NCBI RefSeq assembly: GCF_002210345.1
Contig: NZ_MWQI01000013.1
Span: forward strand, 1 to 52,325
DNA: 52,325 bases
Origin: Fibrobacter sp. UWB4
GTDB taxonomy: Bacteria > Fibrobacterota > Fibrobacteria > Fibrobacterales > Fibrobacteraceae
Direction: 5' to 3'
Shown here: piece by piece, positions 1,942 through 52,325 of the stretch
Layout of the letters: each line of letters begins with the position of its first letter
Position numbering within the stretch: the stretch's first letter is position 1
Notes under the pieces: generated by a model
What the model was told of the DNA's origin: nothing
What the model saw: the letters and a program-made list of their open reading frames with translations, nothing else
Databases searched by the model: none
Position numbers and translations under genes: made by a program

Positions 1942-3504
1942 TTAATTGGCAGGCTTGCAACCGTTCGGATATTCATCCGTGAGGCATTCCTGTTCTTCGA
2001 GCGGATCGCCTTCCTTGTAGGTGGACCAGTCATCGTGCCACTTGTAACGGTTATCCTTGGTCTTGTTGATACGCGTCATGTAATGGTCGATGAGGTACTG
2101 CGGGCATTCCACTTCTTCCCAGTGGTAGGTCGGATTGTCTGCGGCCATGTACCAGTCGGCAAACCAGTGGCAGCCGCGGAGCAAGTTCGGGAAACCGGCA
2201 TTTCCGAATGCGGCATCGCACATATCCTTTACGCATTCCTGATACTTTTCAAGAGTGTTGTCGTAACCGAGCTTGCTCTGGCATTCCGTGAGGAAGCCGC
2301 CAAAGCCTGCGCCCCATTTCACGTTAGCACCGTTTACCTGGACAGAGAGGGCATCGAACGCTCCAACACCGCCACCCGGCACCATCAAGTCGAACTGGCC
2401 AACTTCCACATCGTGACCGATGTTGGACGTCATCACGACAATGTGCTTGCCCTTGAGAGCCTTGTGCGTTGCCTTCGCTGCATTGTTAGCACTTGCGTCC
2501 TTGAAGCTACCATCGTACTGGAGATGGAAGCACTTGCCGCAGGTCGTCTGGGAACCAGGGCCAGCCACATAAGCGTAAGAGAGATTTTCATTTACAGCGA
2601 TAGGAGCCATGTCCGTGCAAGTGAACACGCCCTTTTCCTTAGCATTGCCGCAAGCGTTGTTCGTGCCTTCAAAGCCATACCAGTACTGCTGAACAGCATG
2701 GCCAAGCGTAAAGGTCGGGACTTCAACGTCGTGGATGTTGCAGTTACGGGCAGTCGTCATGCCCTTCTCATAGGATTCCTGTGTAGTCGTATCGGTCTTG
2801 CCTTCCTGACCATTGCTAATCCAGGAGCAGTGCGGCTTACAAGCATCCCAATAGCGGCTGTTCCAGCCCTTATTTCCGTTGCTCAAGATGTCCTTCGTGT
2901 ATTCCGCAGGAGGCGGGCCGTAAGATTCGATTGTCGGGAAACCATCGGGGCCAATTTCAGAATTGCCACTGCTAGAGCTTTCGGCAGCCGAAGACTCAGG
3001 AATTCCACTAGACATCGGATTTACAGACGAACTAGACAGAGCTGAATTAACACTGGAGCTGGACACCGGATTCGGACCAACAACAGAGCTTGAAGACACA
3101 TCAGAACCGCCACTTAAGCCAGTATCGGTAGAGCTCGATCCCGGATTCGATGCACCTGCACTAGAGCTGCTTTCGCCACCCGGAGTAAAGTTCGCTTCGC
3201 AACGCAGCAAAGCTTGAAGATCGACATTGGACAAAATAACTTCACCAGTGGTCAAATCCAAAATGTTACCGACGCCATCGTACGCGCCAACAACATTATC
3301 CACAACGTCCGTGACCTTGTTATCATCGCCAATAATCCAGTAGGAATTGCCCACTTCAAGGAGCCTGCCCGAATGGGTAAGCGTCATTGCAGAGCAAATA
3401 TCCGACGGGCCAGGACCTACTGGCGGCAGTGGATCATCAGAGCAGGCGCTGAACATCGAAAAAGCGCCCGCAGCAAGTAAAGAACTCGTTAAAATTTTTT
3501 TCAT
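1942..3504 (-). CDS. GH45 endoglucanase A (lipoprotein-like leader)
   Basis: 520 aa from the ATG at 3504, chosen over an upstream in-frame start at 3561 because AAAGGA lies just before it and a signal peptide begins there. The leader ends in FSAC, a lipobox-like site. One copy of an N-terminal beta module (see findings) precedes serine-rich linkers (about residues 100-180). The GH45 catalytic domain follows: RYWDACKPHC with Asp220 aligns with the catalytic base of fungal Cel45, and QFDLMVPGGGVG with Asp372 aligns with the acid; the HDV aspartate just before it matches the third conserved acidic residue. It carries a roughly 35-residue C-terminal extension absent from the two other GH45 enzymes here. 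Expected to cleave beta-1,4-glucan internally. The linker may span the cell envelope (inference). Confidence 0.92.
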   Translation of the reverse strand: MKKILTSSLLAAGAFSMFSACSDDPLPPVGPGPSDICSAMTLTHSGRLLEVGNSYWIIGDDNKVTDVVDNVVGAYDGVGNILDLTTGEVILSNVDLQALLRCEANFTPGGESSSSAGASNPGSSSTDTGLSGGSDVSSSSVVGPNPVSSSSVNSALSSSSVNPMSSGIPESSAAESSSSGNSEIGPDGFPTIESYGPPPAEYTKDILSNGNKGWNSRYWDACKPHCSWISNGQEGKTDTTTQESYEKGMTTARNCNIHDVEVPTFTLGHAVQQYWYGFEGTNNACGNAKEKGVFTCTDMAPIAVNENLSYAYVAGPGSQTTCGKCFHLQYDGSFKDASANNAAKATHKALKGKHIVVMTSNIGHDVEVGQFDLMVPGGGVGAFDALSVQVNGANVKWGAGFGGFLTECQSKLGYDNTLEKYQECVKDMCDAAFGNAGFPNLLRGCHWFADWYMAADNPTYHWEEVECPQYLIDHYMTRINKTKDNRYKWHDDWSTYKEGDPLEEQECLTDEYPNGCKPAN

Positions 3505-47826: not shown

Positions 47827-49554
47827 CTAGAATTGGGCCTTGAGGGCTGCCGGGCATTCGACTTCTTTATAGGTGTGGTTCGGGTTGCCTGCAGCTTCCA
47901 TCCATGTGGCAAGGAAGAGGCAGCCTTCCTTAGCCTGGGTGTCACTTGCGAATGCTCTGTTGCACTTTTCAGTGAGACATTCCTTGCGCTTGGTTAGGAG
48001 GTCGCCACTGTATCCGACTTCCTTTTCGCAGTCAGAGAGGAGGCCGCCGTAGGTTGTGGTGTTTTGCGGGATGTTCCAGCCCATCTGGCTGCAACCATTG
48101 AAAGCGCCGAATCCGCCACCCGGGATCATCACGTCGAACTGACCGCCTTGCACGTCGTAACCGATGTTCGATGCCATCACGACGAGAGTCTTGCCAGCAA
48201 GAGCCTTGTGGTTTGCCTTGGTTTCGTACTTGCCTGTGCCGGTGAAGGTGAGGGCGAAGCACTTGCCGCATGTAGCGTCGTTACCCGGAGTTGCTGCGAA
48301 TGCGTAGGCGAGCTTGTCGCTCACGATTATAGGAATCTGGCTTGTGCAGGTAGTGCCCTGGCCACCGGAGCAGATGCTACCGTTAGTGTTGCCGATCGGG
48401 GTCTTGCCCTTGGCATCGCAAGTTTTAGCGGCACCGCCGTGTTCCGGCCAGGAGCAGTGGGGCATGCAGCAGTCCCAATAACGGGTTGCGAAGCCCTGCT
48501 GTCCACCGGCACCTGCGTTGAGGTACTTGGCTTCTTCGGCAGATGCGTTCGGATTGTCTATTTTGGACGAAGAAGACTTAGCCTGGCTGCTAGAGGACTT
48601 GGCCTGGGACGAAGAGGATTTCGCCTTGCTGCTGGAAGACTTCACCTGGGACGAAGAAGATTTGGGCTGGTCCTGCTTCTGGCTTGAAGAGGACTTTGTT
48701 TCCTGGCTGCCGTTTCCGCTTGTCACGTTCAATGTGAGTGTTATGCTTTTGCCGTCGGCCATCCATGTTTCAGTGACTTCGCCAACCTGGAATCCTCCAG
48801 GGACGGTGGCGGAAATGGTAAACGTCTTTGCGCTTGCATCGTATTTGCAGTCGCTGTCCTGGATGAACCAGGCGTTCCAGGACTGTCTGGTTGGCTGGCT
48901 ATTGACACCCGAGACTGTGACAGGGGTGATTGCCTTGCCTTGTGCGACGGTCTGTGTGAGAGAACCTGCACCACCGTTACCTGGCTGTTCCTGCTTTGCA
49001 GAAGAGCTTTCCGGTTTCGGTTGTTCTGTTTTCTGCGATGACGATGAAACGACGGGATTGACTTTAGCGGAGCTGGAGCTTGCTACCGGAATCCCTGGAG
49101 TATATACAGAAGAGCTGCTTACAGCGATGACCGCGCTGGAATTCGGCGTACCTTCACCAGGAGCGGAAACGATTTCGCCTTCAGGTGTCATTACGTAGCC
49201 GTTAGGATAGGTGATGGTTCTACCGGGATTTACAACCGGAAGGGAGCTAAGGTCTACGACAATTGGTGCTGCACCGTCTATAATGATGCTGCTGGTTGCG
49301 ACATCGAATGTTCCGACGGGAACGCTGTATTCGTTAGTCACGGTATACGTGCCTGTCCCGTTGGGAATAATGAAATAGATTGCTGTACCGGTATTTACCA
49401 TAAAGCAGTGCTGATCGACGTCGAAAGCAGCTTTTGGCTGGGTTCCAGGAAGTTCCGATGTGTGACCCGGTACAGATGCTGGGTCTCCAGAGCAGTTCCA
49501 TGCGATAAAGGAAAGGCCGAAAATGGCGAGGGTTGTGAATAGTTTGTTCTTCAT
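47827..49554 (-). CDS. GH45 endoglucanase B
   Basis: 575 aa. A hydrophobic leader ends in FIAWNCSG; the Cys is a lipid-site candidate although Asn before it is unusual. One copy of the N-terminal beta module (about 45-120), a Ser/Pro linker, an Ig-like domain (about 190-275, ending SITLTLNVTSG), a strongly repetitive Lys-Ser linker (KSSSSQAKSSSS units, about 285-325), then the GH45 domain: TRYWDCCMPHCSW with base Asp361 and QFDVMIPGGGFGAFNGC with acid Asp474. Many Cys pairs suggest disulfides. Cleaves cellulose or other beta-1,4-glucans. Tandem with enzyme C but with its own terminator and 213-bp leader. Confidence 0.93.
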   Translation of the reverse strand: MKNKLFTTLAIFGLSFIAWNCSGDPASVPGHTSELPGTQPKAAFDVDQHCFMVNTGTAIYFIIPNGTGTYTVTNEYSVPVGTFDVATSSIIIDGAAPIVVDLSSLPVVNPGRTITYPNGYVMTPEGEIVSAPGEGTPNSSAVIAVSSSSVYTPGIPVASSSSAKVNPVVSSSSQKTEQPKPESSSAKQEQPGNGGAGSLTQTVAQGKAITPVTVSGVNSQPTRQSWNAWFIQDSDCKYDASAKTFTISATVPGGFQVGEVTETWMADGKSITLTLNVTSGNGSQETKSSSSQKQDQPKSSSSQVKSSSSKAKSSSSQAKSSSSQAKSSSSKIDNPNASAEEAKYLNAGAGGQQGFATRYWDCCMPHCSWPEHGGAAKTCDAKGKTPIGNTNGSICSGGQGTTCTSQIPIIVSDKLAYAFAATPGNDATCGKCFALTFTGTGKYETKANHKALAGKTLVVMASNIGYDVQGGQFDVMIPGGGFGAFNGCSQMGWNIPQNTTTYGGLLSDCEKEVGYSGDLLTKRKECLTEKCNRAFASDTQAKEGCLFLATWMEAAGNPNHTYKEVECPAALKAQF

Positions 49555-49720
49555 GATACAGTAAGCCCTTGTAATTATATCACACCCTGTATTCCAATCA
49601 TCCGCGCTAAAAGATAAAATCTTCTTCTCTGAAATGCTCGTAAATAAGAGTAAAAAGAACTATACAATAAGTTTTTGTGAACTTACGCACAACTTATTTA
49701 TTATCAAAGACTTACAAAAA

Positions 49721-49746
49721 AGAAAAACGCCCCGGTTTGGGGCGTT
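49721..49746 (-). terminator. terminator of GH45 gene C
   Basis: AACGCCCC pairs with GGGGCGTT around GGTTT; preceding As are the U-tract on the minus strand. Confidence 0.85.
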
Positions 49747-49767
49747 CAGTTCCGTTTTAGACCTTTT

Positions 49768-51453
49768 TTAGTACTTGGCCTTGAGAACTTCGGGGCATTC
49801 CACTTCGACGTAATCGTGCAACGGGTTGCCTGCGCCGCTCATGAAGTTGGCGAGGAACAAGCAGCCCTTCTTGGCTTCGCTGTCGCTAGAGAATACGCTT
49901 TCGCATTTGTTTTTATAGCACTTGAGAGTTGCAGTGGGCTTGTAGTTGCTTTCCTTTTCGCAGTCGGAAAGGAGGCCACCGTACTGTTCGCCTTGCGGAC
50001 CCCAGCCCATGGAGGAGCAGCCGTTGAACATGCCCACGCCACCGCCTGGAATCATGATATCAAACTGGCCCTGCTGCACATCGCCACCGATATTCGTTGT
50101 CATGATGATGAGCTTCTTGCCCTTGATGGATCTGTGGTTGTCGTCTGTTGAATACTTACCCTTGCCGGTGAAAGTGAGCTGGTAGCACTTGCCGCAAGAG
50201 CCGCCGTCGCTTGCAGGCACAGCCGCGAAAGCGAAACCCATTTCATTACAGCCGTCGATTGTAAATGGAATCTGGCTTGTGCAGGTCATGAGGCCGCCGC
50301 CACTGCAAACGCTGCCGCCACCCCAGTCGGTGCTTTCGTTCTTGCCCTTGTTGGTGCACTGTCTAGAGTAGTTGCCGTTTGCGTGTTCTGGCCAGGAGCA
50401 GTGAGGCTTGCAGCAATCCCAGTAACGGGTTGCCCAACCGGAACCGCTCTTGCCGCCGCTTTTCACCTTGATCGACGGGCACTGTCCGGTTACAGGTGCA
50501 GAAGAGCTGCTCTTTGGCTGGGAGCTGCTGCTGCTCTTGACCTGGGAACTGCTGCTCTTGGGAGGATTAGCACTGCTGCTGCTCTGGACCGGCGGAACGT
50601 ATGCAGAGGAGCTGCTGACTATAGGAGGAACGTATACGCTTGAAGAAGACGGGATCACGGGAGGAATGTAGTACGCACACTTTGAGTCCGGTGTCAGAAG
50701 CGGGAGCTTCGAGAGGTCGGCCTGCGTGATCGTAGCGCCGTTGGCCTTCGACTTGATGGTTCCTGTGGCAATGTCGAAGGAACCGACAAGATTGCCGCTT
50801 GGATCTGTCACGGAAAGGTCGGAATAAATGAGGTAACGTCCCGTGTTGTCGATATGGAGGAATGCCGGTTCGGTGATGGTGTAGAAGATTCCGTCACCTG
50901 AAATGATTGGCAAGCTTGTCAAGTTGATGTTGTTGACGAGCAGGTTGCCGGACAAGTCCGAGATAAAAATCGTTGATGTCGAGTTCGGAACGAAATTCCA
51001 GATACCGGCTGTGGCGCCTGCTTCGTCTGTCACGGTGTAATCATCGTAGATAAGGAAGTTCTTATCGGCGGCCAGGTACCAGGCGTTGACGCAAGATGTA
51101 ACTTGAGTGCTCGGGGGTACTACAGAGCACTTGGTCGGATCGCCAGGGAGCGTTTTGACTCTCTTCGGATCGGAAAGATCAACCTGGTTGACCAAGTTGA
51201 CTTGGTTCAGGTCTTTGATGATGACGTAGTTTGTGAACTGGACAGGGTAGGCTGTGCCCACCTGGTTTCCGTTAATGTCGGTTACTCTGAAGTCCTGAAG
51301 AATGATGTAGCCTTCTTTGATCAGGTACAGTGCATCTTCGCAAGGCACAAAAGAGACTTCGCCATCTTTATTGGTAGGCGATTTTTCAGAGCAAGAACAT
51401 GCTAAACCAATTGTCCCAAGCGCAAGCAGGGACTTCAAAAGGGGGTATTTCAT
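49768..51453 (-). CDS. GH45 endoglucanase C
   Basis: 561 aa. The leader ends GLACSCSEK (lipobox-like LACS-C). Three consecutive copies of the N-terminal beta module (about residues 38-110, 112-180 and 185-260; signature VTDxxGNxVG) precede the Ser-rich linkers (VPPIVSSSSAYVPPV). The GH45 domain follows: TRYWDCCKPHCSW with base Asp346 and QFDIMIPGGGVGMFNGC with acid Asp465, and the helper Asp in GGDV. It ends like enzyme B (EVECPEVLKAKY), so B and C are likely tandem duplicates that diverged in module number. Single gene; a long AT-rich spacer precedes it. Confidence 0.94.
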   Translation of the reverse strand: MKYPLLKSLLALGTIGLACSCSEKSPTNKDGEVSFVPCEDALYLIKEGYIILQDFRVTDINGNQVGTAYPVQFTNYVIIKDLNQVNLVNQVDLSDPKRVKTLPGDPTKCSVVPPSTQVTSCVNAWYLAADKNFLIYDDYTVTDEAGATAGIWNFVPNSTSTIFISDLSGNLLVNNINLTSLPIISGDGIFYTITEPAFLHIDNTGRYLIYSDLSVTDPSGNLVGSFDIATGTIKSKANGATITQADLSKLPLLTPDSKCAYYIPPVIPSSSSVYVPPIVSSSSAYVPPVQSSSSANPPKSSSSQVKSSSSSQPKSSSSAPVTGQCPSIKVKSGGKSGSGWATRYWDCCKPHCSWPEHANGNYSRQCTNKGKNESTDWGGGSVCSGGGLMTCTSQIPFTIDGCNEMGFAFAAVPASDGGSCGKCYQLTFTGKGKYSTDDNHRSIKGKKLIIMTTNIGGDVQQGQFDIMIPGGGVGMFNGCSSMGWGPQGEQYGGLLSDCEKESNYKPTATLKCYKNKCESVFSSDSEAKKGCLFLANFMSGAGNPLHDYVEVECPEVLKAKY

Positions 51454-52147: not shown

Positions 52148-52325
52148 ATGGCAAAAGAACATTTTGACAGAAGCAAGCCGCACTGCAACATTGGCACCAT
52201 CGGCCACGTTGACCACGGTAAAACCACTTTGACCGCTGCAATCTGCACCACCCTTGCTGCTAAGGGTCTTGCCGCTGCAAAGCGTTTCGATGAAATCGAC
52301 AACGCTCCGGAAGAAAAGGCTCGTG
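52148..52325 (+). CDS. tuf: elongation factor Tu (5' part only)
   Basis: The window ends after 59 codons. [20 protein letters not shown] and [17 protein letters not shown] are the classic EF-Tu start with the G1 P-loop (GHVDHGKT). It carries aminoacyl-tRNA to the ribosome. The start has a good purine-rich ribosome site (AGAGGAAAAA). The frame is open to the window edge. Confidence 0.97.

Follow-up and report, generated by a model that had tools for sequence, protein, structure and literature searches.

A small N-terminal module on lipoprotein-like GH45 cellulases of Fibrobacter

The window analysed here, a whole contig of 52,325 bases from the 3.58-Mb genome of Fibrobacter sp. UWB4, encodes three enzymes on its minus strand, A (1942-3504, started at an ATG internal to a listed TTG open reading frame (ORF)), B (47827-49554) and C (49768-51453), each with a C-terminal glycoside hydrolase family 45 (GH45) domain. 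In all three, a hydrophobic signal peptide ending in Cys is followed by one or more modules of about 62 residues, a Ser-rich linker and the GH45 domain. The module, which lies between the lipoprotein-like signal and the linker, is present once in A, once in B and three times in C. Profile comparisons indicated that the five segments are homologous and part of a larger family, which, across the genomes searched, occurs in a single bacterial family and is attached almost exclusively to GH45 enzymes. The three enzymes are probably cellulases carried as surface lipoproteins, and we tentatively favour, at somewhat less than an even chance, the reading that the module acts as a membrane-proximal interaction or stand-off module on lipid-anchored surface GH45 enzymes.

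The original prediction had described these segments by a shared pattern of VTDxxGNxVG and (D/N)LSxLP, three times in C and once each in B and A. The trend of this pattern is present but its literal form is loose and many copies deviate: VTDxxGNxVG is varied to VTNEYSVPVG in B, VTDVVDNVVG in A and VTDEAGATAG in the second copy of C (C2), and only B and the third copy of C (C3) have an exact (D/N)LSxLP, with NLTSLP in C2, DLSDPK in the first copy (C1) and DLQALL in A. A search of the window for the literal DNA form of the motif found nothing. Alignment of the five segments showed six invariant columns, and C2 and C3 were 32% and 29% identical to C1. The profile of the three copies of C scored 10.3 bits on B and 10.2 bits on A, and the best of 6000 shuffled N-termini scored 13.4 bits. 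Four-copy profiles scored the fifth copy at 10.2 bits for B (best shuffle 7.9) and 13.5 bits for A (best shuffle 10.4), while the profile of A and B gave 11.7 bits for C3 and 3.7 bits for C2 (best shuffle 7.5; C1 not reported). Scores so near those of shuffles led us to reject the five copies alone as proof of homology, and the modules of relatives were used for this reason. After removal of the target and of all copies at least 35% identical to it, 36-70 of the 116 relatives' modules remained per profile, and these leave-out profiles recovered every copy (E 3.8e-6 for C1, 1.3e-11 for C2, 6e-11 for C3, 1.4e-4 for B and 4.6e-7 for A; best shuffles 7.7-10.1 bits), which bears out the shared pattern as such. 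The 116 relatives had been recruited by a profile with the window copies among its seeds, and the test is thus strict on similarity and not on recruitment.

The profile of the five copies, a check proposed in the original prediction, matched 79 of the 101 genomes of the window's family (E ≤ 0.1), and GH45 was found in 98 of the 101 (E ≤ 0.001). With a 45-copy profile, matches at E ≤ 0.001 were obtained in 91 of the 167 phylum genomes; these represent 5 of 40 genera and belong without exception to the window's family. For the genus, a sample of 26 genomes requested at a completeness of at least 98% gave 107 module matches (E ≤ 0.001) and 105 distinct GH45 frames, a further 42 GH45 rows being second pieces of these same frames. 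GH45 frames held 101 of the 107 matches (100 directly and one in a frame read through a stop), and the other six were in short frames of 126-190 aa without GH45; no module was found on other enzymes in the 26 genomes at this threshold. The module-bearing GH45 frames numbered 71 of the 105, comprising 44 with one match, 22 with two and four with three, plus the interrupted frame with one. When the window's GH45 enzymes were used as queries, 76 loci were obtained in named assemblies, of which 70 were labelled as Fibrobacter and three as Fibrobacteraceae, with three from other phyla. A tblastn search of plasmids with the three-module region of C gave no match at E 0.1.

A sixth copy of the module, missed in the earlier note, was found in the window's genome in a 125-aa protein without GH45 (locus L169:6107-6484, at about 278.1-278.5 kb of genome contig C2). 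This stand-alone protein has a lipoprotein-like start and consists of little beyond the signal peptide and one module, which was recovered by its leave-out profile at E 5.1e-13 (78 of the 116 relatives; best shuffle 9.2). Dismissal of the match at position 278244 of that contig as antisense noise was rejected, as it corresponds to a conserved small gene; its neighbours, read from their translations, are a TolB-like gene and an RNA-methyltransferase-like gene. Five versions were compared, namely G000, G055 and G034 (of the six in the 26-genome sample) and G087 and G088 from other genomes, the last lying within a longer open frame with a start picked by script. All five began with WNC-SES and were 71-90% identical. 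The ratio of non-synonymous to synonymous substitution rates (dN/dS) was 0.08-0.14 in all 10 pairs from the five genomes, although dS exceeded 1 in 8 of the 10 pairs and reached 2.1, so the ratios are rough. From these ratios the stand-alone protein appears to be under purifying selection, and its constraint hints at a module with a binding function of its own and not at a passive spacer.

Structure prediction, also proposed beforehand, produced confident beta-hairpin modules without a clear match in PDB. The AlphaFold model of the three-module region of C (61 aligned sequences) had a pLDDT of 92.5 and a pTM of 0.63, and that of the single module of B (102 sequences) a pLDDT of 87.0 and a pTM of 0.76. 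In the models every module consists of three hairpins built from six short strands, of which one in B is only two residues long. Inspection by eye showed tails like the extra hairpin of B in about 19 of the 32 relatives with a single module. Among 176 dereplicated copies, D-x-x-G recurs at turns two (D 78%, G 78%) and three (D 49%, G 82%), and the charge is about -5.6 per 62 residues, with 3% K+R and 12% D+E. Sequence searches of PDB gave a best E of 0.0053 with the 45-copy profile and of 0.0056 with another module profile, through short turn matches only. Foldseek found no match at E ≤ 0.001 for the two models in PDB, nor for the single module in BFVD. The best VIA Z scores, 4.3 and 4.1, were too low for use; in both cases the match was to residues 481 to 535/536 of sialidase NanJ. 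SH3/tudor-like chains and the Tubby-like 1zxu among the weak Foldseek rows were not counted as evidence. Overall, these fold searches, made with predicted models, do not demonstrate a new fold.

The catalytic parts of the three enzymes were assigned by PF02015 (GH45), with E values of 9.5e-21 for A, 3.2e-29 for B and 5.6e-31 for C and scores of 75.1, 102.8 and 108.6 bits, all above the 27-bit cut-off of Pfam. The two residues that we take to be the catalytic Asp of GH45, D346 and D465 in the numbering of C, are invariant across A, B and C in the motifs YWD and FDxMxPGGG. All 10 solved relatives at E 0.001 matched the GH45 part of C, and these are named endoglucanases, a cellulase and GH45 proteins.

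The module proteins are predicted to be lipoproteins. By a rule of our own, a lipoprotein-like start was recognised in 80 of the 86 module proteins that were uncut at the 5' end of their loci. The distance from the Cys to the first module had a median of 25 residues (range 15-115), and that from the last module to GH45 a median of 109 residues, 28% of them Ser, with a second domain included in some proteins. The context of the Cys was counted in the 148 module-GH45 ORFs with a recognised start, out of 174; the rows are redundant and the comparison sets small, so the counts are indicative. An acidic pair at +3/+4 was present in 98 of the 148, in 6 of 14 GH45 ORFs that lack the module and, among 34 further ORFs from the same loci, in 4, and Asn stood before the Cys (-1) in 102 of the 148, 8 of the 14 and none of the 34. 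Two close relatives of C have ACSC-SDD at the position of its ACSC-SEK. Consensus export signals of this kind, S-D-D-D-D in Bacteroides fragilis and S-D-D-F-E in Flavobacterium johnsoniae, are given as functional in Capnocytophaga canimorsus in the available part of PMC5080379. The Cys context of many of the GH45 enzymes suggests, from sequence, a surface lipoprotein signal in Fibrobacterota that resembles the lipoprotein export signal (LES). The proposal that the module itself anchors the enzyme at the surface is the less likely one: since many module enzymes bear this Bacteroidota-like export signature, a lipidated N-terminal Cys is the likelier anchor, and the module adjoins it.

Some correspondence with Fibrobacter succinogenes S85 can be drawn from published lists. 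The available part of the S85 genome paper (PMC3079729) lists four GH45 genes, including Fisuc_1425, Fisuc_1426 and Fisuc_1473; the first two are neighbouring and the third is 47 numbers on, an arrangement which, by gene numbers alone, resembles the C/B pair and A of the window. Fisuc_1426 is possibly the counterpart of B or C. In the passages available of PMC6851124, FSU_1893 (= Fisuc_1425) has a signal peptide at residues 1-19 and showed a 1.36-fold rise on cellulose in the cell-envelope proteome.

Under the favoured reading, the enzyme would be lipidated at its N-terminal Cys, and a Bacteroidota-like signal, which in many relatives takes the form C-S-[DE]-[DE], would direct the lipoprotein across the outer membrane to its outer face. 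Separated from the lipid by some 25 residues, the module would contact a putative cell-surface partner and may also set the reach of the tethered catalytic domain. We favour interaction over a purely spacing role because the stand-alone form, which has no cargo, is constrained, and a partner over a carbohydrate-binding role because the module is membrane-side and acidic, with its conserved aromatics in hydrophobic strands; the preference is modest.

Several observations weigh against this reading. Within the window the acidic pair is present in A only (SDD), with SGD in B and SEK in C fitting partly, and the five stand-alone proteins have SES after the Cys and no acidic pair. The acidic signature and the Asn at -1 also occur in GH45 enzymes without the module and would therefore belong to the enzymes and not to the module. 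Asn at -1 is not known to be part of the standard lipobox. The module was not detected in 34 of the 105 GH45 frames, and only 6 of the 26 genus genomes yielded the stand-alone form. In the available part of PMC5080379, such export signals are demonstrated in Bacteroidota and not in Fibrobacterota. The available S85 list gives the signal peptide as 'No' for Fisuc_1425 and Fisuc_1426 and 'Yes' for Fisuc_1473 (PMC3079729), and Fisuc_1426 is listed in the extracellular medium in the available text of PMC4668043. Our confidence was reduced by the facts on the stand-alone protein and on signal peptides.

Other functions of the module were weighed as well, among them the binding of polysaccharide, which the original prediction had suggested besides anchoring. 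A new carbohydrate-binding module (CBM) directing GH45 to cellulose or to some other plant glucan is rather unlikely, although the layout is of the CBM-linker-catalytic type, the stand-alone form is constrained and three module positions are 97%, 77% and 60% aromatic. It would also fit the available statements that none of 31 S85 cellulases has a CBM for crystalline cellulose, meaning CBM1, 2 or 3, and that most have no recognisable CBM (PMC3079729), with a similar statement on F. succinogenes cellulases in PMC6291624. However, the module adjoins the probable lipid while the long linker separates it from the enzyme, its charge is acidic, and its aromatic positions lie in strongly hydrophobic strands and may belong to the core; that no solved structure stands out in the fold searches also tells against a CBM, though this excludes nothing. 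A passive spacer, holding the enzyme clear of the membrane and of surface polysaccharide at a reach given by copy number, would agree with the one to three copies among the paralogues, with the low identity of C2 and C3 to C1 and with the membrane-proximal place of the module. Such a spacer is unlikely, as the constrained, cargo-free stand-alone protein (dN/dS 0.08-0.14) is hard to explain by it and no other enzyme in the 26 genomes carried the module at E ≤ 0.001.

The module could instead be a divergent member of DUF3659 (PF12396) or of the beta-flowers (PF21784 and PF21785), hence of an already described type, which is compatible with any of the functional readings and would by itself give no function. 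The earlier view of a domain undescribed in GH45 enzymes held for the window copies, as the N-terminal parts of A, B and C had no match in Pfam or NCBIfam; at E 10, Pfam gave outside GH45 only a chance-level match to DUF1122 in the C-terminal part of A. A match to an existing family, named beforehand as what would refute that view, is absent from the window copies but has an edge case among the relatives, in that the DUF3659 cut-off is reached, at 24.8 bits, by one divergent GH45 protein from a Fibrobacteraceae assembly, and 3 of 41 family genomes have a frame above it. DUF3659 was also the commonest weak Pfam match of the module, in 8 of 45 copies (best E 0.0015) and in 10 of 102 copies (best E 0.017). 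A, B and C did not match it at E 10, and the sole DUF3659 match in the window's genome (E 0.133) is away from the modules; DUF3659 appeared below its cut-off in 9 of 14 control genomes too, and the weak matches therefore mean little. For the beta-flowers, with cut-offs of 25 and 38 bits, A, B and C again had no match at E 10, PF21784 matched 2 of 45 copies (best E 0.11), the best relative reached 17.9 bits with PF21785, and the best beta-flower E was 0.0028. The D-x-x-G turns resemble the [DNEQ]XXG tips of beta-flowers, but those have 8, 10 or 12 strands and the module has six (perhaps eight in B). Distant kinship is possible, membership is not indicated by the thresholds of the families, and we regard a place in either family as improbable. 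The open-licence listings searched and the available passages of five Fibrobacter papers held no description of the module.

A bolder version of the favoured reading, which we consider doubtful, is that a new three-hairpin family arose in Fibrobacteraceae, became dedicated to GH45 and binds lipid-anchored enzymes to a specific surface partner or directly to cellulose. It would thereby take the place of the cellulosome and of CBMs for crystalline cellulose, both absent from this organism, and the stand-alone protein would be a further, separate part of one system for adhesion or degradation. The features of the three enzymes are given in Table 1.

Table 1. Positions in the window of the features of enzymes A, B and C.
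Feature	Positions	Strand	Basis
Enzyme C lipoprotein-like signal peptide, to second Cys (...LACSC-SEK)	51391..51453	-	sequence
Enzyme C module copy 1	51151..51351	-	leave-out profiles; AlphaFold model with six strands
Enzyme C module copy 2	50899..51099	-	leave-out profiles; AlphaFold model
Enzyme C module copy 3	50689..50886	-	leave-out profiles; AlphaFold model
Enzyme C Ser-rich linker, about residues 268-322	50488..50652	-	sequence
Enzyme C GH45 domain	49771..50442	-	PF02015 on 49939-50442; remainder aligned to B and A
Enzyme B lipoprotein-like signal peptide (...IAWNC-SGD)	49492..49554	-	sequence, relatives
Enzyme B module	49222..49428	-	leave-out profiles; modelled alone (pLDDT 87.0, pTM 0.76)
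Enzyme B fourth, extra beta-hairpin after module (TITYPNGYVMTPEGEIVS)	49165..49218	-	strands in AlphaFold model
Enzyme B second undescribed domain, residues 197-278 (GSLTQTV...LTLNVT)	48721..48966	-	profile search
Enzyme B GH45 domain	47842..48495	-	PF02015, alignment
Enzyme A lipoprotein-like signal peptide (...FSAC-SDD)	3442..3504	-	sequence
Enzyme A module	3190..3390	-	leave-out profiles
Enzyme A GH45 domain	2083..2868	-	PF02015, alignment

The second domain of enzyme B, also missed in the earlier note, has about 82 aa and is flanked by two Ser-rich linkers. Domains of this type were present in 39 ORFs of the fetched loci (a redundant count), some of them GH45 enzymes without the N-terminal module, and a search with 22 members gave no strong Pfam or PDB match. 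On another contig of this genome, a 475-aa frame encodes a further GH45 (C10:120458-121504), in which no module was detected. An esterase-like protein (BD-FAE, E 2.1e-23) adjoins enzyme A at 353-1801 on the minus strand and has at its C-terminus a type IX sorting signal, though a weak one (22.2 bits against a cut-off of 27). At the other end of the window, the contig end cuts a gene on the plus strand (52148-52325) read from its translation as elongation factor Tu; a duplication of tuf, if real, could explain why the contigs of several relatives end near the C-type gene. Promoter- and terminator-like sites near B and C were about as frequent as in shuffled sequences.

F. succinogenes is a prolific degrader of cellulose in the rumen and is non-cellulosomal. 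The surface placement of cellulases is a poorly understood step in cellulose digestion, in which the module may help to place the enzyme, and in the available passages of PMC6851124 no typical surface anchoring domain had been demonstrated for the degradative enzymes of this species. What is new is a lineage-specific accessory module on Fibrobacter GH45 cellulases and not a new kind of system: the domain is small, is predicted with confidence and occurs almost solely on a single cellulase family, beside a probable lipid anchor, and a natural module-only protein exists for it. Together, the module and the module-only protein would turn the manner in which Fibrobacter keeps its cellulases at the interface into an experimental question.

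Among known systems, the enzymes resemble the LES surface lipoproteins of Bacteroidota in having a Cys, a polar residue and an acidic pair in 98 of the 148 ORFs, and differ from them in phylum (Fibrobacterota), in the Asn before the Cys in 102 of the 148 and in the acidic pair lacking from B and C of the window. DUF3659 has 61 profile positions, close to the approximately 62 residues of the module, and weak sequence similarity to it, but A, B and C do not match it and other module copies match weakly. In the available part of PMC10584680, beta-flowers are described with 8, 10 or 12 strands in four to six hairpins and [DNEQ]XXG at the hairpin tips, and some beta-flower proteins have lipoprotein motifs. 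The module is similar to these families, which share clan CL0395 with the Tubby C-terminal domain, in its short hairpins and fitting turns, whereas it has three hairpins (possibly four in B) and Pfam scores far below the cut-offs. CBMs on GH45 enzymes are likewise small beta domains joined to GH45 by a low-complexity linker; the module differs in having no family match and in its membrane-proximal side. Finally, FPm-1, or the basic terminal domain of F. succinogenes, is described in the available passages of PMC3079729 and PMC6851124 as a lineage-specific paralogous module of plant-cell-wall enzymes, and in the latter as C-terminal and basic, with a suggested role in surface attachment and an overlap with type IX sorting signals in some proteins. 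The module shares with FPm-1 a lineage-specific place on plant-cell-wall enzymes and a suggested surface role, but FPm-1 is C-terminal with a pI above 9, whereas the module is N-terminal and acidic and lies behind a lipoprotein-like signal, which sets it apart from the FPm-1 type.

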